Positions 10,157-52,168 of a stretch of 64,000 nt of DNA are shown piece by piece. Source of the stretch: Candidatus Nomurabacteria bacterium (GTDB taxonomy: Bacteria; Patescibacteriota; Saccharimonadia; Saccharimonadales; Saccharimonadaceae). The DNA is taken from NCBI GenBank assembly GCA_031257295.1, contig JAIROX010000001.1, positions 124,001 through 188,000 of the forward strand, written 5' to 3'. Each line of letters begins with the position of its first letter. Within the stretch, counting starts at the first letter, position 1. Made by a program: the position numbers and the translations under genes. Under the pieces are notes generated by a model, which saw nothing but the letters and a program-made list of their open reading frames with translations, was not told where the DNA came from and searched no databases.

Positions 10157-13100
10157 TTGCAGTTGTCTAAAATAAAGAAGGGCTTGTTAAAGCCTACAAG
10201 AGCTATCATAAGGCTTACTTGGTTAGCTGGCTTTGCCGTGTCTAGACAGCGTGATGTTTTTAATAAGTCTTCACTGGTGGCTAAGGTTCAGCGTTACTCA
10301 ATACTGGTAGGCCTATTAGTCGTGTTTATTTACCCTGTTGTCGCCCTTGTCTCCGGCCAACTTAGCCAGGAAGCTAGTGCTCTAACCACCCAAAACTTTA
10401 GCTACACCGGTGCAGCTCAAACCTTCACTGCACCACAGACAGGGACTTACCAGCTTGAAGTGTGGGGTGCCTATAGCGGTGGTTATTCTATTGGAACAGT
10501 TAGCTTAAACAGTGGGGATGTGCTTTATGTTTATGCTGGTGGCGCGCCAAACGGAGACTCGGGCGGCTTTAATGGTGGTGGTGACGGTGATGGCAACGGT
10601 GGGGGTGGTGGTGCTTCAGACATCCGAATAAACACTGATTCTGCTTTTGCCAGAGTGATCGTAGCTGGCGGTGGTAGCGCTAGCGGTGATTGTGGGGGTG
10701 GCTCAAGTAGCTGTGATGGAGTGACCAACCAAGTTGTTGGTAGCGGCGGTTTCGGTTGTAGCACCAATGGCTCCCAAAGTGATAGGGGCTGGACAGGTGG
10801 GGGAGGTGGTTGGTACTGTGATGGGGGTGGCCGTGACTATGCCAGCGGTGGTTCGGGTTGGGTGTATACTGCTCCAACTTATTCATATTGGGTTGCTAAC
10901 GCGTCTTCATCACTAACTAGCGGTTGGTTGCTAAGCCCCAGTTACTATCTGTCCAATGCTTCCACTACTAGTGGCAATAGTGCGAACAACGGCTATGCTA
11001 AGATAACACAGTTAACGGCAGGATCATCCACCCCGACTATAACTTCGATAACACCTGACTCTGGGCCAACGACTGGTGGGCAGGTGGTGACTATCACTGG
11101 CACCGGCTTTAACCCTACTCCAACCACTCCCACTACCATGCAACAGATGACCCAGGCCTATTGCGCTTCCATGACAGTCTATAACGGCATCAACACAACA
11201 GCCTTGCTAACCCTGTCGGACACTCGTGGTGGGTCATACACAGTGGGAAAGTTGGCAGATGGTAACTGTTGGATGTTGGATAACCTGAAGCTGGGTAGCA
11301 CAACCGGCACTATGGCCCTCACTAGCAACGACACTGATCTGCATACTGCTTCCAACCCTAATATCACTAACAGCTCTGGCACCTTGCAGTTTACTCTACC
11401 ACAACTAATCACTTCCGGTTCCTCTAGCTACGACAATCCAGGTGCTTACGGTCCCGTCACCGGCGACACTAGTACGGGTAGCACTAATTACGGCTACCTC
11501 TATAACTGGCCAGCTGCCACAGCTGGTGAATCCCGCACTACTATGCCTAATAATTCTGGCAACGCGCCTAACTCTATTTGTCCAGCTGGTTGGCACATGC
11601 CCACCGGCGGCAGTGCCGGCGAATTCGCTTGGCTTAACGCTAAAATGAATAATGTTGCAGCCACTAGTCCATCAACCAATAGTGGCACAGGCTATTACCA
11701 GAACTTCCAGTTTAACGGTCCTTTCCGGGGTGTGTCCTCTGGCTACTGGTTCAACAGTTTCAACGGTCAAGGTGACAGCGGCAACTTTTGGTCAAGTTCG
11801 ACCTATCCGGATAATTCCAGTATCGCATTTCGCCCGTACTTTGGTTCGTCGTACGTCCACGTGGACGACTATGACAGTCGTGTGGTTGGTTATTCTGTCC
11901 GCTGTCTCGCTACTGGTGGTGACTCCACTCCGGTGGTTGATTTTGGTGGCACCGCAGCCACGGTCGTCTCTTATACCGACACTTCCATCACCGTCACCAC
12001 GCCGGCCCACGCCGCCGGGAAAGTGGATGTTGATGTTTCTGTGAATGGTGTTGCGGCCGTCCCGAGCGTTCCCACTGCCGACGACTACACTTACGTCGCC
12101 TCAATTAGCATCACTGCTATCACCCCCAACCACGGCCTCGAGGCCGGCGGCACTTCAGTAACGATTAGCGGTGCGAACTTTGGCGCCAGTGAACCCACTG
12201 CTAGCACTACGGTTCAGGAGTTTGGTACTTGCGGCGCCAGCCAACAGGTCACACTTCCCGCTGGCACATACAGGCTAGAAGCCTGGGGCGCCCAGGGCGG
12301 TTACCGCACGTCTAGCCCCAATAACCCCAACAACGGCGGTAAAGGCGGCTATTCGGCTGGTGATATTGTCCTGACGCAGGCGCAAACTGTGCAGGTAAAC
12401 GTTGGTTGTTCCGGTAATAATGGCGGCTGGAACGGCGGAGGTGCCAGAACGGGCGCTCCGTACCCAGGCGGCGGTGGCGGTACGGACATTCGCATTGGCG
12501 GCACGGCGTTGACTGACCGCATTGTTGTGGCCGGCGGCGGCGGTTCAGAGGGCGGCGACGATGGCTCGTATGGCGGCTACGGCGGCGGGCTAAACGGTGG
12601 TCAGGGGCGGAATTACTATGGTCAAGCCGGTACGGCTGGCACGCAAACTGCGGGTGGTACCGGCTGTACTAACAGCGGTAACTGTACCAATATAACCAGC
12701 ACGGCTGGCATATTCGGTCGGGGCGGCGACAGCGGCACACCCCAGGTGGCTGGCAGTCTGATCCAATCGGGCGGCGCCGGTGGTGGTGGTTGGTTTGGTG
12801 GCGGTGGCTCGTCAGGAGATTATTCTGGATATGATGACGCTGCCGGCGGGGCTGGTGGATCGGGTTATGTGTTTACCACTTCTTCAAATAAAACTGGCTA
12901 TGGCGCCAATATCCCAAACATTCAATATTATTTATCCAACACCTCGCTCGTTGCCGGTAACACCTCGTTTGCGGCACCTGGCGGCGGTAACGAAACCGGC
13001 CATAGTGGCGATGGGTATGTACGCATTACTCCACAAACCACGGGGTTCTTCCCGGTCGTTTTTGACACCGGCGGCACCCCAGCACCCTGCCTGGTCAGCT

Positions 13101-13810
13101 CCTGGACGGATACCCAAATCGTCTGCACTACCAGTGCCCACGTTGCTGGCCTCGTCTCTGTTACCATTACCAACCCCAATACCAGCGCTACGCTCCCTGC
13201 GGTCTATACTAACCCATCTGGTGACCTTAACGACCCCGCCAATGTGTCTTCTGGCTTTTTGTACCAACCGATTTATGTTGAGCTACAGCCAATCGCTAGC
13301 ACTAATTTGAGCATTGCTCCGGGAAGCGCTGGCAGCGTGGCCTCTTCTAGTTCTCAAGGTATTTCTACTAAAACTAATAACCCAACTGGCTATAGCCTAT
13401 CCCTCTATACGACGGACGCAAACTCCAGGCTGGCAAATACGGCTAACAGTTCTTACTATATATCTCCAGTTGGTGATGGCGTAACCACCGGCATACTATC
13501 TAACCCGATCGCTCTTCCTGCTAACACCTGGGGCTTTGCCATACCCAAGACCACAGACGGAACTACGCCAGATAGTGCGCTGGTATCCAACGACTTCGAC
13601 AATAGCTACACTAGCGTAACCAGTCAATCAGGCTATACGGCCAAGTACGCAAAGGTGCCGACTAGCGCTTTAACTGTTAAGAACACTACGTCAGCCAATG
13701 GTGAGTTGCCGAGCAACACCAGCATATACTACGCTGCTAATGTTGACCTCACGAGGCAGGCCGGCACGTATAAGGCAACGGTAGTATATACGGTGACGGC
13801 ACGCCCGTAA
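10157..13810 (+). CDS. Giant secreted surface protein: Gly-rich, IPT/TIG and FISUMP domains
   Basis: The 1217-residue protein starts at TTG 10157 (another TTG at 10163 is possible). It has a basic N-terminus and membrane segment (about 51-70). A Gly-rich domain follows (about 78-290). Next is an IPT/TIG first half (about 292-326), a Fibrobacter-paralogous (FISUMP) domain with GNCWMLDNLKLG, CPAGWHMP and YSVRCLA (about 328-589), then the IPT second half (591-645). A second IPT (649-1020) is likewise interrupted by a Gly-rich domain starting GTCGASQQV (about 685-963). The C-terminal 200 residues form a beta-rich domain resembling that of the RCC1 protein at 41260. No LPxTG tail is seen. Role: probable surface adhesin or stalk; ligand unknown. 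Confidence 0.8.
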   Translation: MQLSKIKKGLLKPTRAIIRLTWLAGFAVSRQRDVFNKSSLVAKVQRYSILVGLLVVFIYPVVALVSGQLSQEASALTTQNFSYTGAAQTFTAPQTGTYQLEVWGAYSGGYSIGTVSLNSGDVLYVYAGGAPNGDSGGFNGGGDGDGNGGGGGASDIRINTDSAFARVIVAGGGSASGDCGGGSSSCDGVTNQVVGSGGFGCSTNGSQSDRGWTGGGGGWYCDGGGRDYASGGSGWVYTAPTYSYWVANASSSLTSGWLLSPSYYLSNASTTSGNSANNGYAKITQLTAGSSTPTITSITPDSGPTTGGQVVTITGTGFNPTPTTPTTMQQMTQAYCASMTVYNGINTTALLTLSDTRGGSYTVGKLADGNCWMLDNLKLGSTTGTMALTSNDTDLHTASNPNITNSSGTLQFTLPQLITSGSSSYDNPGAYGPVTGDTSTGSTNYGYLYNWPAATAGESRTTMPNNSGNAPNSICPAGWHMPTGGSAGEFAWLNAKMNNVAATSPSTNSGTGYYQNFQFNGPFRGVSSGYWFNSFNGQGDSGNFWSSSTYPDNSSIAFRPYFGSSYVHVDDYDSRVVGYSVRCLATGGDSTPVVDFGGTAATVVSYTDTSITVTTPAHAAGKVDVDVSVNGVAAVPSVPTADDYTYVASISITAITPNHGLEAGGTSVTISGANFGASEPTASTTVQEFGTCGASQQVTLPAGTYRLEAWGAQGGYRTSSPNNPNNGGKGGYSAGDIVLTQAQTVQVNVGCSGNNGGWNGGGARTGAPYPGGGGGTDIRIGGTALTDRIVVAGGGGSEGGDDGSYGGYGGGLNGGQGRNYYGQAGTAGTQTAGGTGCTNSGNCTNITSTAGIFGRGGDSGTPQVAGSLIQSGGAGGGGWFGGGGSSGDYSGYDDAAGGAGGSGYVFTTSSNKTGYGANIPNIQYYLSNTSLVAGNTSFAAPGGGNETGHSGDGYVRITPQTTGFFPVVFDTGGTPAPCLVSSWTDTQIVCTTSAHVAGLVSVTITNPNTSATLPAVYTNPSGDLNDPANVSSGFLYQPIYVELQPIASTNLSIAPGSAGSVASSSSQGISTKTNNPTGYSLSLYTTDANSRLANTANSSYYISPVGDGVTTGILSNPIALPANTWGFAIPKTTDGTTPDSALVSNDFDNSYTSVTSQSGYTAKYAKVPTSALTVKNTTSANGELPSNTSIYYAANVDLTRQAGTYKATVVYTVTARP

Positions 13811-41238: not shown

Positions 41239-41249
41239 CCTGCTATAAT
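41220..41249 (+). promoter_or_regulatory. Promoter of the RCC1 surface protein gene
   Basis: TTGACG (41220-41225), 18-nt spacer, TATAAT (41244-41249). The first in-frame ATG (41248) lies inside the -10, so the real start is ATG 41260, about 10 nt after the -10. Confidence 0.75.
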
Positions 41250-41259
41250 GATCTCTGTT

Positions 41260-44200
41260 ATGGGGATTTGTTTGAACGCAGTCAAGCATCGGCATAACAG
41301 GGGTAATATCGTGAAAAAAGCGGTAATTGTTCTCGTTGTGGCGGTTTTATTTGGAGCTGTGATTTCTTGGATGACAAGTCTCGTGCGAGCCTCTTCGGCC
41401 ACTGGCGTAACGCCTGGTTCCGGGCCGACCAGAGGCTACGACGAAGTGACTATCAACGGTTTGGATATTGGAATTGCTACCAGATATGTGACGCATATCT
41501 CGGCCGGTTATAACCACACACTAGCGCTAACTACTGATGGTAAAGTTTACGCTTGGGGGCGCAATAATTATGGTCAATTGGGTGACGGCACCACAACAAA
41601 CCACAGCAAGCCGGTGCCGGTCGACATGACAGGGGCACTGGCTGGTAAGAAGGTTACCCAGATAGCTGGCGGCGAGGCGTTTTCGTTGGCATTAACTACT
41701 GATGGCAAAGTTTACGCTTGGGGTTATAACAACCGGGGCCAAATGGGTATCGGCAGCACCACTAACCAACCGCGACCGGTGGCAGTTAATATGGTTTCAG
41801 GCGTACTGGCAAACAAAACCGTTACGCAGATTGCGGCTGGCCGTGAGTTCGCATTAGTCCTTACTAGCGATGGGAAGGTCTTCTCTTGGGGACGCAACTA
41901 TTACGGCCAAGCTGGTAACGGCTCTAATGGTGGTAATAACACCTCGCCCGTGGCAACTGACATGAGCGGCAGTAGTAGTTGCTTGAATGGTAAAACCGTT
42001 AAGCAAATTGCGGTAGGCGGCTGGCATTCGTTGGCGCTGACCACTGACGGCGTGCTTTGCTCGTGGGGATATAATAACGATGGCCAGCTGGGCGACGGTA
42101 CTACTAGTAACCGCTCGCGACCAGTGGCGGTCAATGTTACAACTAGCGCGCTGGCTGACAAGACCATTGCTAAAATTTCTGGTGGCAGCTACCATACTAT
42201 GGTACTCGACAATAGCGGCGCGGTCTATGGTTTTGGCTATAACAACCGCGGGCAGCTGGGTGACGGCACCACTACCAACCGCAGCACCGCGGTGGCAGTC
42301 AGCACCGCAGGCGTTCTTGACGGCAAAACCATCACCGATATTTCGGCCGGTGGCATAGATGGCACTTCGTTAGCGCTTGGTAGTGATGGCAAAGTTTACG
42401 CTTGGGGCTATAACAACTACGGCCAGCTTGGTATTGGTTCGACCTCCACGCAAACCACACCGGTGGCGGTCAGTATGGCTGGAGTACTGAGCGGTAAGAC
42501 TGTCACGCAGATTGAGATGGGCTATTATCATGCGGCGGTGCTAACAAATGACGGCCAGGTGTATTCGTGGGGCCGTCGCAATTATGGCCAGCTGGGTGAT
42601 GATAGCACCAGCGGTACCGCTACATCACCAGTGGCGACTGACAAAACCTATTTTGACCATGTGCCTCTGCCGCTAACCATTACTTTTGGCGGTAAATTCT
42701 GCAAGGACATTACCACGCGCGCTAATAATATCACCACGCATATCGCCTCCGACGGCACGAGCGTGCAGTGTCTGACGCCGGTGCACAGCGCGGGGCTGGT
42801 CGATGTGACGATCAACGACACGGTGCACGATCCATCGACGCTGCCGCAGAGTTACCTATATGTGTCGTCGGGCGCGGCGATTGGTGATATTGCGCCAGAG
42901 GCGGGTGCGACGGCTGGCGGGAGTACCATTACGATTGAGGGCGTGGGTTTTGGCGCTTATGACGATTCGTCTACCAAATTCGCCACTTGCGGCTCGACGA
43001 GTAGCCCTTACCAAACATTCACGGCGCCGCAAACTGCCACGTATAAGTTGGAGGTGTGGGGCGCTCAGGGTGGCACGGGGTGGTATAGCACCACGCGGTC
43101 GCATCCGGGCGGTAAGGGTGGTTATTCGGTGGGCGAAATTTCGCTAGTTGCGGGCGAGGAGCTGAACATTTTTGTAGGGTGTAAGGGGCAGGACGGGTTT
43201 ATCAATTCTGGTGTGCCGATTGTGGGTGGATATAACGGCGGTGGCGGGGTGCCGAGGATGGTTTCGACTGGGAATTATGCGCCGGGCGGCGGTGGCGGTG
43301 GGACGGATATTCGGCTGAATGGAACGGCTTTGAGCGACCGGGTGATTGTGGCCGGCGGGGGTGGGGGTGGCGGAAGTGTTAACGATTCTGGTGCTAGTAA
43401 TATGGGCGGATTTGGTGGCGGCGCTAGCGCTGGCAGTGGGATTGGTAGTGGCAGTAAACAGCCTTATGACGGCAGTGGCGCGACGACTTTTTCCGGTGGT
43501 GCGGCGGGCGGCAATGGTCGTGGTGCCGGGGGTGGCGGTTCGGGCTATGTTGGCAGTATGTTGGCGCGAGCGCAAACTTTGGCGGGGAATTTGGCGACGA
43601 TTCCAGACCCGACGGCGGCGAATGTGAGCTTTATGACTGGCAAAGCTGGCGACGGCTATGCGAGAGTCACGGCGATTACTAAACTGCCGAGCGTGACGGT
43701 GGGTGGGCAGGATTGCCCAGTGCAGTCGTGGCAGGACGAGGCTATAACTTGCACTGTGCCGGCGCACGCCAAGGGTGCGGTAGATGTAGTGCTGGGGATT
43801 GGTGGCTCGGCGTTAAACGAGCCGAATGGTTATACTTATGTCGATGCGCCGAGCGTGGCGAGCGTGTCGCCTACGCTAGGGTCGACTGACGGTGGGACTG
43901 GTTTTGGCGGCAGCTACAACCCAGCAGGGCAGGTGACGATTAACGGCAACGGCTTTCAAGTGCCGTCAAGCTCGGACGGCAGCAGTTATTACACACCGGT
44001 GGTGAAGATCAGCGGGCGGGATTGTGCGAACGTGGTTTTGCTGTCGAATACGCAGTTAACTTGTGTGCCACCGGAAAGCGGCTTAGACACCAGCCACGCC
44101 GAGGGCGCGGCGGCGGTAATGGTGTCGGTTATGGGCGCAACGGGTACGCTGAACAACGGCTATACTTATCGCGCGCCGCTACAGGTCGAGACGATTTGCC

Positions 44201-44883
44201 AAGTTGGTACCGGCACCACCACTAACGACCAGATAAAATGCACAACCGCGGCGCGAGATTCGGACTTAGTGACGGTAGTAGTTGATAACGGCTTTGACAG
44301 CGCTATGATGCCACCAATTTGGAGCGATACCGGCAATGCCACATCGGGAGATATATCAGGCGATAATGTTGATTCCGGGTGGCTTTATACTGGACTATTC
44401 TTGTCGTTAGCGTCGGATTCAATGGGCGGATTAGTATCTTTTATGGTCAATCCATCGGGTACTACCAGTTCGAGTTATGATATTATCACTGTTCAAACCA
44501 ACAACGGTCGCGGCTACAACCTGTCGATGGCTACGACTGATAATCGGCTAACCTGCACAACGTTGGCCAGCTGCTCAAGTGTTTGGTTTAACTCAATAAC
44601 GACTGGTGGTGCACTGAGCGATGGTACTTGGGGTTGGAATGTCGACGTGGTCTCAAACCCAACCAACCCAGGAGTAGCAACTCCACCGTCGATCTGGCGA
44701 TTGATTCCGCTTACTACCTCATCATCTAGTGATAAGTTGATCTACAGTATTACATCGCCTACTATTTATACTGACAATATTGGTGATAAATTCCGCCTGT
44801 GGTTTGGTGCCAGAGCTAGCCAAGCTATGCCGGCGACCAGTTATACAAGAGTCGTGACTATCACGGCTGTAGCGAATATATGA
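41260..44883 (+). CDS. Giant surface protein: seven-bladed RCC1 propeller, IPT/TIG and Gly-rich domains
   Basis: About 1207 residues. A signal/anchor segment (about 15-40) ends near VRASS. An IPT first half (about 45-75) is followed by seven RCC1-type repeats (about 76-464), each with a core like LTTDGKVYAWGRNNYGQLGD. The IPT second half (LTITFGGKFC to SYLYV, 470-537) follows. A second IPT (540-865) is split by a Gly-rich domain (about 576-808) with GGGGGTDIRLNGTALSDR. A third IPT (867-970) has no insert. The C-terminal 200 residues are beta-rich and like those of the protein at 10157. No sorting signal is seen. Likely adhesin; expression probably controlled by TetR. Confidence 0.82.
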   Translation: MGICLNAVKHRHNRGNIVKKAVIVLVVAVLFGAVISWMTSLVRASSATGVTPGSGPTRGYDEVTINGLDIGIATRYVTHISAGYNHTLALTTDGKVYAWGRNNYGQLGDGTTTNHSKPVPVDMTGALAGKKVTQIAGGEAFSLALTTDGKVYAWGYNNRGQMGIGSTTNQPRPVAVNMVSGVLANKTVTQIAAGREFALVLTSDGKVFSWGRNYYGQAGNGSNGGNNTSPVATDMSGSSSCLNGKTVKQIAVGGWHSLALTTDGVLCSWGYNNDGQLGDGTTSNRSRPVAVNVTTSALADKTIAKISGGSYHTMVLDNSGAVYGFGYNNRGQLGDGTTTNRSTAVAVSTAGVLDGKTITDISAGGIDGTSLALGSDGKVYAWGYNNYGQLGIGSTSTQTTPVAVSMAGVLSGKTVTQIEMGYYHAAVLTNDGQVYSWGRRNYGQLGDDSTSGTATSPVATDKTYFDHVPLPLTITFGGKFCKDITTRANNITTHIASDGTSVQCLTPVHSAGLVDVTINDTVHDPSTLPQSYLYVSSGAAIGDIAPEAGATAGGSTITIEGVGFGAYDDSSTKFATCGSTSSPYQTFTAPQTATYKLEVWGAQGGTGWYSTTRSHPGGKGGYSVGEISLVAGEELNIFVGCKGQDGFINSGVPIVGGYNGGGGVPRMVSTGNYAPGGGGGGTDIRLNGTALSDRVIVAGGGGGGGSVNDSGASNMGGFGGGASAGSGIGSGSKQPYDGSGATTFSGGAAGGNGRGAGGGGSGYVGSMLARAQTLAGNLATIPDPTAANVSFMTGKAGDGYARVTAITKLPSVTVGGQDCPVQSWQDEAITCTVPAHAKGAVDVVLGIGGSALNEPNGYTYVDAPSVASVSPTLGSTDGGTGFGGSYNPAGQVTINGNGFQVPSSSDGSSYYTPVVKISGRDCANVVLLSNTQLTCVPPESGLDTSHAEGAAAVMVSVMGATGTLNNGYTYRAPLQVETICQVGTGTTTNDQIKCTTAARDSDLVTVVVDNGFDSAMMPPIWSDTGNATSGDISGDNVDSGWLYTGLFLSLASDSMGGLVSFMVNPSGTTSSSYDIITVQTNNGRGYNLSMATTDNRLTCTTLASCSSVWFNSITTGGALSDGTWGWNVDVVSNPTNPGVATPPSIWRLIPLTTSSSSDKLIYSITSPTIYTDNIGDKFRLWFGARASQAMPATSYTRVVTITAVANI

Positions 44884-49564: not shown

Positions 49565-50221
49565 ATGGCAAAACAAAAAGAAGAAAAAAAGAACAGGAAG
49601 GTTCTATTTGGCTTTCTGTTTCTATTTGTAGCTGTTGGCATCATTGTCGGTACAGTGTTCGCGTTCTTCAGTGACGTGATTATCGGTGGCGGTACAGCTA
49701 CAGCTGGTACACTCGACATAACAGGTAGCTTCACTATGAAGCATTATAATGCGGCCGGTACGGAACTCACCGACACTAACGAGACTAACACCACGATACC
49801 AAACTTAAACCCTGGTGACTTGATCCACATTTCTGGTGCTGCCACTAATGCTGGTAATAAGAGTGCTCATGTGCGTGGCAACTTTGCTTTAAGCGGCGAC
49901 CTGGCTTCTTTGGTTAAGGTTGTAGCCGGCACTACAACTAAAACGCTAGCGGGTTGTACGGGCGCTGCAGCTCTCACGCCAGCCGGTGGTCCTTACCTAA
50001 CAGCTGCGGCCATTTTGAATGGTACCGGTGCCAATGCTGAGACTGAAGGTGCTGGCGTAAGTAGCTATAATCAAGGTATTTTGATTTGCTTGCCATCGAC
50101 TACGGGCAACGCTGCTCAGGGTAAAGCTCTAAGCATCGACGCTAAAGTTCAGGCCGTTCAGTATCGTAACAACACTGCCGCTGACTGGTCTGATGTTGTG
50201 ACTAGCGCATTTGGTAGCTAA
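49565..50221 (+). CDS. TasA/camelysin-like secreted fibre protein
   Basis: 218 residues. A basic start and hydrophobic segment are followed by VFAFFSDVIIGGGTATAGTL, very like the SipW-cleaved signal and mature start of Bacillus TasA/CalY (AYFSDxE..TxNTFTAGTLDL). The mature part is Thr/Gly/Ala-rich, beta-type, with two cysteines (AGCTGAA, LICLPS) able to form a disulfide. It probably builds surface fibres. A SipW-type peptidase is encoded two genes downstream, supporting the assignment. A strong promoter and SD suggest high expression. Confidence 0.75.
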   Translation: MAKQKEEKKNRKVLFGFLFLFVAVGIIVGTVFAFFSDVIIGGGTATAGTLDITGSFTMKHYNAAGTELTDTNETNTTIPNLNPGDLIHISGAATNAGNKSAHVRGNFALSGDLASLVKVVAGTTTKTLAGCTGAAALTPAGGPYLTAAAILNGTGANAETEGAGVSSYNQGILICLPSTTGNAAQGKALSIDAKVQAVQYRNNTAADWSDVVTSAFGS

Positions 50222-50321
50222 TAGACAAACTTTTAAGACAGCTAAACTATCAAGACCGAAGCTTTTATGTAAGACAGCTAAAACTCGCTATGAACCAAGA
50301 CAGATAAGTAAAACTAATAAT
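50222..50321 (+). repeat. Short direct repeats in the TasA-like 3' region
   Basis: AAGACAGCTAAA occurs at 50235-50246 and 50271-50282, and a variant AAGACAGATAA at about 50297. Nothing coding is seen. Possibly a small duplication. Confidence 0.5.
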
Positions 50322-50358
50322 TGCAAACGGCAGCCGATGAGGTTGCTGTTTGCGTTTA
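50322..50358 (+). terminator. Intrinsic terminator after the TasA-like gene
   Basis: GCAAACGGCAGCC pairs with GGTTGCTGTTTGC (13 bp, two G:U) around GATGA, followed by GTTT. Confidence 0.8.
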
Positions 50359-50373
50359 TGCTATAATTACACC

Positions 50374-51099
50374 ATGAAACTACGCTTGTATGGACTAACG
50401 GTAGCGGCGTTCACGATTGCCCTGTTATCGTCTGCGCCAGTTTCAGCTGCTGATGCGACGATTACTATTAGCAACGCAACAACTTCGCATCCGGTGGAGA
50501 TGATTTTTGATGAACATGATATTGTGCCCGGTTTTTCATCTACGTACGAGGTCGCTATTGATAATCGATTAAGCTCACTCGCTATGGTGAAGCTTGATTC
50601 AACCGCAGAAGACCTGCCAGCAGGAAGTGACTTGCTCAAATATGTGACATTTGCAGTTTATTATAACGGCGAACAGATAACGGCAGGTAAGCATCTGTCA
50701 CCAGGGTTGACCGACCGAGAGCTGATATGCGTTGCTCCCCATACGCGCGACAAACTAGACCTTAAGGTAGATTTTGATAAGTCTGCCGGGAATGGTCTGC
50801 AAGCCACTAATTTTAAATTATTGTTTAATTTCTCAGTTAGCGAGGTGCAGTCATGCGCGGGTTTTGACAGTGCCCCCCTGCCTCCAAACACTGGTGGTAC
50901 AGTCTTGCCGCCAACCAAAGAGGGCACAACTATCCTCAAAACAAGCATAGGGCTTATCGTTGGTAGCTTGTTCTTGACATTATTATTTGGCTTGCTGGTA
51001 TTGTTTAGCCGCAAAAAAGACGATGACGACAAGAAAAAACCAATCTATACTCCAAAAAGACGAAGTGGGCTGGAGATTAAGCATGAAAAAAGTCATTAA
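50374..51099 (+). CDS. Surface protein with LPxTG-like sorting signal (LPPNTGG)
   Basis: 241 residues from ATG 50374 (TATAAT 6 nt upstream, leaderless). Signal peptide to about AVSA-like APVSAAD; a beta-type external domain with cysteines in LICVAPH and QSCAGF; then APLPPNTGGTVLPP, a spacer, a membrane helix (about 188-212) and a charged tail RKKDDDDKKK. This is the order of a cell-wall sorting signal, though the motif deviates from strict LPxTG and the tail is longer than usual. It overlaps the signal peptidase-sortase gene by 17 nt. Confidence 0.75.
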   Translation: MKLRLYGLTVAAFTIALLSSAPVSAADATITISNATTSHPVEMIFDEHDIVPGFSSTYEVAIDNRLSSLAMVKLDSTAEDLPAGSDLLKYVTFAVYYNGEQITAGKHLSPGLTDRELICVAPHTRDKLDLKVDFDKSAGNGLQATNFKLLFNFSVSEVQSCAGFDSAPLPPNTGGTVLPPTKEGTTILKTSIGLIVGSLFLTLLFGLLVLFSRKKDDDDKKKPIYTPKRRSGLEIKHEKSH

Positions 51100-52168
51100 C
51101 AAGGTTTTGTCTAATACCTTCTTCATTGTTTGCCTAGCGATACTAACCGTCGTAGTGGTGTTTTGTGTACTGCTCGGAAGAGCAGATGATTTTTACGTAT
51201 TTGGTTACAAGCCATTCATCATTGCTACTGGATCCATGGAGACGAACTACATGGCCAACTCCATGGTAGTGGTTAAAAAAGGTGGCTACGATGATGTGAA
51301 AAAGGGCGATGTGATTGCTTTTCGAGCTCAAGCTATGGGCGGAAAAATGGCCTTTCACCGGGTTATCGAGGTCACCGATGCTGGATTTACCACTAAAGGC
51401 GATCATAATATGGTAGCAGATCCGGCTCTTGTGGCGCGCGATAACTATATCGGTCGTGAGGCTTTTCACACTAACGCCACGGCCTATTTTATTAATGAAC
51501 TAAACAGACCAGGCGGTTTTGTGCGCGTTATAGCGTTGCCAGTTTTGGCTATCATGCTGATATTTGCTGCGGTTTATATCATCCGCAACTGGGAAGCTGA
51601 CATTCGTGTCAAACTGCTGGCTGTGTTTGGCTTTGTGTTGGCCGCCAGTATATTAGTACTGGTCTCTTACGTGCTATGGAACGGCAAGCGCGTTGAATAT
51701 ACCAACGAGACACTGGCTTCTTTGGCAAGTCGGTTTAATAGCAGCGAACCGCTAGCGAACCTGGAGCTAAATAACAACAAGGTGATCGGCACACTGAAGA
51801 TCGAAACTCTAGGTATCAACTACCCGATTATTAAGTATTCCTCGCCGGATTCTTTGGAACAGTCTATCACGTGGTTTGCTGGAGCTGGCTTGAATGAAAA
51901 CGGCAATGCTGTGCTAGCCGGCAACCTAGCTAATGGTAAACTATTCTTTACTGACCTTGACTACTTGCGAAAAGGCGATAAAGCGGTTGTAGTTGATGCT
52001 AGCCGTCACAAAGTTGAGTATGTGGTGATTGACTCGTTTGTAACTGATCCGAACGATAAGTCTGTCTTGAGGCAAGATAGAGCTAAACGAGAATTAACCC
52101 TGATCTCTTGCCAGAAAGACCTGGGGGATCGCTATATAGTTAAGCTTGAGGCCAAGCAGCTCAAATAG
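51083..52168 (+). CDS. SipW-type signal peptidase fused to a sortase domain lacking the catalytic His
   Basis: 361 residues from ATG 51083 (SD GGAG). N-terminal helix, then an S26B peptidase with nucleophile in IIATGSME (about 51), MAFHRVIEV (general-base His) and TTKGDHN. Two helices follow (about 148-200). The C-terminal sortase-like domain (about 230-361) runs IGTLKIETLGINYPIIK, GNAVLAGNLANGKLFF, LISCQKDLGDRYIV. Cys and Arg of the sortase triad are present, but the His of the usual AGH is Asn. It may cut TasA-like preproteins and bind or process the LPPNTGG protein encoded just before it. Confidence 0.82.
   Translation: MKKVINKVLSNTFFIVCLAILTVVVVFCVLLGRADDFYVFGYKPFIIATGSMETNYMANSMVVVKKGGYDDVKKGDVIAFRAQAMGGKMAFHRVIEVTDAGFTTKGDHNMVADPALVARDNYIGREAFHTNATAYFINELNRPGGFVRVIALPVLAIMLIFAAVYIIRNWEADIRVKLLAVFGFVLAASILVLVSYVLWNGKRVEYTNETLASLASRFNSSEPLANLELNNNKVIGTLKIETLGINYPIIKYSSPDSLEQSITWFAGAGLNENGNAVLAGNLANGKLFFTDLDYLRKGDKAVVVDASRHKVEYVVIDSFVTDPNDKSVLRQDRAKRELTLISCQKDLGDRYIVKLEAKQLK

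Follow-up and report, generated by a model that had tools for sequence, protein, structure and literature searches.

A single-chain fusion of a SipW-type signal peptidase and a sortase-like domain, encoded with a TasA-like protein in Saccharimonadaceae

SipW-TasA fibres and sortase anchoring are usually viewed as separate systems. In the Bacillus loci tapA-sipW-tasA and sipW-tasA/calY, an S26B peptidase is encoded with a secreted protein of the TasA/camelysin family that has an aromatic P2' residue at its cut site; SipW is a stand-alone enzyme, and these loci contain neither a sorting-signal protein nor a sortase domain. Filament assembly in B. cereus has been described as sortase-independent (PMC13082335). 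In C. perfringens the locus sipW-bsaABCRSD, with srtB in its 5' flank, brings SipW, a TasA-like polymer former and a sortase gene side by side as two separate enzymes, and deletion of srtB leaves BsaA polymers and pellicles unaffected (PMC7395162). A signal-peptidase fold and a sortase also share a fibre locus in the FCT pilus island of Streptococcus pyogenes, where they are separate proteins and the sortase is the active partner; the signal peptidase SipA, of the bacterial Ser/Lys type and not S26B, is dead, and its inactive fold is required for sortase pilus assembly (PMC4049620).

The window analysed here, a stretch of 64,000 nucleotides, contains a locus that shares features with each of these. 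As in Bacillus, an S26B peptidase is encoded with a TasA/camelysin-like protein with an aromatic residue at the predicted P2' position; as in C. perfringens, a sortase belongs to the same locus; and as in S. pyogenes, one of the two enzyme folds appears to be dead, although here it is the sortase. Unlike in those loci, the two enzymes form one polypeptide, and a gene for a membrane protein with a degenerate sorting signal lies between it and the TasA-like gene.

The fusion is encoded by an ORF of 361 codons (51083 to 52168, plus strand), the start of which overlaps the end of the middle gene by 17 bases. The first-pass annotation had recognized an S26B-type peptidase and a sortase-like domain in this polypeptide, and both score above curated cut-offs. 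The peptidase domain (51182 to 51523; residues about 34-147) matches TIGR02228 at 79.7 bits (E 2.1e-22; cut-off 51.85), and the sortase domain (51779 to 52156; residues about 233-358) matches PF04203 at 70.2 bits (E 1.7e-19; cut-off 26.6); the fusion also matches PF10502 (26.8 bits, cut-off 22.9) and TIGR01076 (48.8 bits, cut-off 39.35). Scores with the narrower models lie below their cut-offs, at 64.6 against 190 for the Bacillus SipW model NF046067 and at 54 bits against a curated 140 for the SrtD model. S26B enzymes have a catalytic His where bacterial signal peptidases have Lys, and the fusion carries the S26B residues Ser51, His92 and Asp107. Because both profile and triad are those of S26B, we class it as a SipW-type maturase, a function predicted from sequence. 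It is the sole TIGR02228 protein found in a profile search of the window's genome. Sortases are defined by a Cys-His-Arg triad. The fusion retains Cys343 (codon 52109 to 52111) and Arg350 (52130 to 52132), but in the alignment the position of the catalytic His is occupied by Asn281 (AAC, 51923 to 51925), a substitution that the first-pass annotation had overlooked. The sortase half thus belongs to the superfamily by profile, fold, Cys and Arg, and because the defining His is absent we do not file it as an active sortase.

Structure prediction, which had been proposed as a check, produced a sortase fold in an AlphaFold model with a mean pLDDT of 69.6, its sortase active-site loop falling below 50. 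The best PDB match of the model is 4d70, C. perfringens SrtD (Foldseek E 8.8e-7, prob 1.00). The same entry is the closest solved relative of the sortase half by sequence, making the class D sortases, which stand alone and have an active Cys-His-Arg site, its best relatives in both respects; the closest solved relative of the peptidase half is eukaryotic SEC11, matched weakly. Between the domains lies a membrane hairpin of two helices (51524 to 51682; residues about 148-200). Hydropathy indicates one N-terminal helix followed by peaks at 142-172 and 172-202, and the model contains helices at 145-169 and from 174 onwards. With the N terminus taken as inside, the hairpin would bring the sortase domain back to the outside, where the peptidase would also lie.

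Searches for S26B and sortase domains in one chain found the arrangement in the window and in six further lineages (G192, G399, G401, G417, G421 and L061), whose full-length fusions are 37-48% identical to the window protein. The samples searched comprised 380 phylum, 393 class, 393 order and 394 family genomes, with overlap between them. BLAST returned one further full-length fusion among the class genomes, and the profile search returned five beyond the window's own among the family genomes; three of these turned up again among GTDB contigs (L060 = G417, L062 = G192, L063 = G399), which also yielded L061. No full-length fusion was found outside the window's own family (f1) in any of the four samples, and none in a scan of viral contigs. 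Separate profiles run on all retrieved ORFs detected S26 and sortase domains together in these seven lineages alone; no sortase domain was present in ten long S26-containing ORFs of other Patescibacteria or in the S26 ORFs of 380-720 aa of Saccharibacteria. Because the same domain order recurs in six independent relatives from other assemblies, a frameshift, an assembly artefact or a chance fusion is rejected. The isolate prefixes Th196 and Lab288 denote the termites Termes hospes and Labiotermes labralis (PMC7024585), and at least two of the fusion-bearing Patescibacteria come from termite guts. The fusion was a form unfamiliar to the first-pass annotation. In the open-access library searched, neither fusions of a signal peptidase with a sortase nor degenerate sortases were the subject of any paper found, which is weak evidence.

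Other Saccharibacteria join an S26-type peptidase to LamG (L036 4335-6017, L049 919-2649), to a lamin tail domain (L037 2815-4245, L050 4250-5521) or to DUF5305 (L051 4113-6278), so fusions of this peptidase to various extracellular domains are a recurring theme. There is also a family of proteins of about 390 aa in which the N-terminal half crosses the membrane several times and an S26 domain lies at the C-terminal end (L032 4157-5338, L043 4189-5340 and about ten similar loci). It is common in genomes of the same family, including one of the window's genus (G387), and was not found in the window's genome.

The first gene of the locus (49565 to 50221, plus strand) encodes a secreted protein of 218 aa with a SipW-type signal ending in GTVFA|FFSD. 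A TasA-like protein with a FAFFSD start had been read here, and it is indeed present, its putative assignment to the camelysin family coming from its homologues. On the window copy alone PF12389 scores 16.8 bits against a cut-off of 22.5. Each of the seven homologues reaches E<0.1 with this model, the best 2.9e-10 and the window copy 0.0064, and the NCBIfam TasA model matches three of the seven. When the profiles of the TasA-like and middle proteins were searched directly against sequences in the PDB, nothing beyond chance matches appeared. The structural model, at a mean pLDDT of 65, has a TasA fold; at E<=0.001 it matches a single PDB entry, the TasA fibre solved by cryo-EM (8aur; E 3.8e-4, prob 1.00, TM 0.41). 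Ala33, Phe35, Ser36 and Asp37 are invariant across the seven lineages. Cleavage is predicted after Ala33, which would put Phe at P2', as at the cut site of B. subtilis TasA (PMC10269814). A signal of the form [FY]A[FY]FSD is present, with the fusion encoded downstream, in all seven lineages.

A pattern search located a 14-bp hairpin (50322 to 50354, plus strand) between the TasA-like and middle genes. The surrounding region, 50300 to 50372, folds at -26.6 kcal/mol (z = -5.7), and none of 200 shuffled sequences was as stable. The hairpin is possibly an attenuator or terminator with a tail that is just moderately T-rich; its position is like that of the terminator with read-through that follows the fibre gene bsaA in C. 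perfringens (PMC7395162).

The order TasA-like gene, sorting-signal protein, fusion is the same in all seven lineages (the middle gene of G399 being taken from frame 7043-7711 of L069). The first-pass annotation had staked its reading on the three genes occurring together in relatives, and they do so wherever the fusion was found. Conversely, a TasA-like profile matches seven of the 394 family genomes, namely six with the fusion, the window's included, and G222, where the TasA-like gene directly precedes a standalone S26B peptidase and no sortase adjoins. A simple probability for this pairing would overstate it because the genomes are related. L061 goes one step further: its middle protein is joined to the fusion in a single chain of 651 aa that links the anchor protein to the enzyme, with a K/R-rich stretch joining the anchor's helix to the first helix of the peptidase; this topology is sensible because both joined ends should be cytoplasmic. 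A cluster in another genome (L098 4945-8337, G054) encodes a standalone S26 peptidase and, after it, three more proteins, of which two have YFTD-type signals and the third has a PDTG-type signal at its C terminus. It resembles the fusion locus, but its sortase would be supplied in trans.

A giant protein with a SipW-type signal, containing RCC1-like or glycine-rich ALK/LTK domains, adjoins five of the seven loci. On another contig of the window's genome (L123 1499-9460, G000:C4) we found a secreted protein of 2653 aa with a YSYFSD signal, which resembles the glycine-rich giant beside the G417 fusion (52% over 43-525). This protein is likely a second substrate, and the fusion may therefore have at least two. 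Within the window, 10157 to 13810 and 41248 to 44883 encode giant surface-type proteins of 1217 and 1211 aa; these resemble the glycine-rich and RCC1-like giants that adjoin the fusion in relatives and have no SipW-type signal.

The middle gene (50374 to 51099, plus strand) encodes a membrane protein of 241 aa with a signal peptide, a probably beta-rich ectodomain, a degenerate C-terminal sorting signal, a transmembrane helix and a K/R-rich tail. It had been described as ending in an LPPNTGG-type sorting signal. That string exists (50878 to 50898), but it lies well upstream of the membrane helix and nine residues before LPPTKEG (50905 to 50925), the sequence that aligns with the [LV]PxTGES signal of the relatives and is its degenerate counterpart. 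Another sortase might use LPPNTGG. Two NCBIfam LPXTG-type anchor models match four and two of the seven homologues, with the window copy below the cut-off. By its LPPTKEG the window's middle protein is not classed as an LPXTG surface protein, whereas the motif is present in the four lineages with an intact sortase. Aligned at the membrane helix, the signals beside intact sortases read LPKTGES, VPNTGES, LPNTGES and LPPTGES, and those beside broken ones LPPTKEG (window), LPPSGEG (G401) and VPNTGET (G192). TGES is thus found in 4/4 intact and 0/3 broken lineages, a chance of 1/35 for a motif picked after seeing the data, on seven points; by the plain LPxTG core G192 counts as intact, since it keeps VPNTG despite the loss of its Cys. 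Because the motif was chosen post hoc and the G192 core is intact, the pattern suggests, and does not prove, that the product of the gene directly before the fusion is the substrate of the sortase.

The peptidase Ser, His and Asp and the sortase Arg are present in all seven lineages, and the sortase His and Cys are both intact in G421, G417, G399 and L061. In the window the conserved VL[AL]GH reads VLAGN; in G192 the Cys is replaced by Val, and in G401 the His by Arg and the Cys by Gly, leaving the catalytic His in five of the six relatives. Trees of the peptidase half and of the TasA-like protein resolve the same two clades (97-99% support), and the sortase tree does not contradict them. Since both clades include intact as well as broken members, the trees require at least three separate losses of the sortase site. 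All three broken lineages keep a full-length sortase domain (PF04203 58-70 bits in the two measured). Of the 40 positions at which the intact sortases all agree, the window shares 38, and the catalytic His is one of the two that differ. Branch lengths give a sortase-to-peptidase ratio of about 4-5 for the window, higher than for any other lineage. Relaxed constraint was considered as a divider of broken from intact members and rejected: of the two tree topologies used, one leaves G401 and G192 with ratios that overlap the intact ones, and only the window stands out under both.

The window sortase is probably inactive at present. One tentative explanation for its persistence is that the dead half has been put to use as a binding module that keeps either the fibre subunit or the middle protein beside the peptidase, a mirror image of SipA (PMC4049620). 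The conserved core of the window copy and the untruncated domains of all three broken lineages argue for such a role; the long window branch fits relaxed constraint equally well, and the would-be ligand, the sorting signal, has changed too. It is just as conceivable, and no better than a possibility, that the sortase half is vestigial, having decayed along with its target signal after anchoring was no longer needed or had passed to another sortase. Repeated losses through different residues, altered signals in the same lineages, the faster evolution of the window sortase and the dispensability for BsaA polymers of the sortase gene flanking sipW-bsaA (PMC7395162) are all consistent with decay, whereas the preserved frame, fold and core positions, and branch ratios in G401 and G192 that need not differ from intact ones, are not what decay predicts. 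That the window sortase still works with Asn in place of His is improbable: Cys343, Arg350 and most of the core are kept, but the missing residue is part of the defining triad, the three other sortases of the same genome retain both His and Cys, and the target signal is degenerate as well. Model geometry is no help here because the active-site loop is below pLDDT 50. A sequencing error at codon 281 or a mis-join is very improbable, for although AAC differs from CAC by one base and the draft genome is in 6 contigs, the fusion recurs in six other lineages, the residues around Asn281 differ as well (GNLANG against GHxxxxG in relatives) and the sorting signal has changed independently.

On balance we favor a model in which the locus produces and matures a TasA-type surface fibre, with the fusion as its peptidase and with sortase and signal degenerated in this organism. 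The TasA-like protein would be exported by Sec, and the S26B half, whose substrate is suggested by adjacency and by the cut site, would remove its signal peptide at FA|FFSD. The released subunit would polymerize outside the cell, where the membrane-tethered middle protein, judging from its sorting signal and position, is likely the surface anchor or nucleator. In the ancestral fusion the peptidase would have shared its side of the membrane with an active, class-D-like sortase, which may have cleaved the middle protein at its [LV]PxTGES signal and so coupled subunit release to anchoring. Since the sortase site (His281 to Asn) and the signal (LPxTG to LPPTKEG) have both degenerated here, cleaving TasA-type signal peptides is most likely the only function left to the fusion, its attached sortase fold being non-catalytic, and the middle protein would stay membrane-anchored or be processed by another sortase. 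The earlier description of a self-contained system for secretion, maturation and anchoring consequently holds in part: the maturation component is intact in every lineage and the whole fits the relatives with intact sortases, but the anchoring component has lost its His here and its signal is degenerate, and two of the six relatives have also lost sortase residues. A bolder proposal, that this is a novel maturase whose two outer-face active-site domains release the subunit and anchor its partner in one step, with the sortase half serving as a non-catalytic assembly clamp in several lineages, we regard as speculative.

The fusion appears to be a new form of the known SipW-type maturase system, and its sortase is degenerate in this organism. 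A single-chain enzyme that keeps the same two neighbouring genes in seven lineages, and is once fused to its presumed substrate, provides a physical tie between the fibre-forming and anchoring systems. It suggests that sortase genes near other sipW loci, such as srtB of C. perfringens, may target a partner protein and not the subunit of the fibre. Because the active site was lost repeatedly, the lineages offer a natural series of active and inactive versions of one enzyme, which bears on whether the sortase fold has a non-catalytic role as fibres assemble. Fibres of this kind would be plausible attachment structures for ultra-small bacteria that depend on a host.
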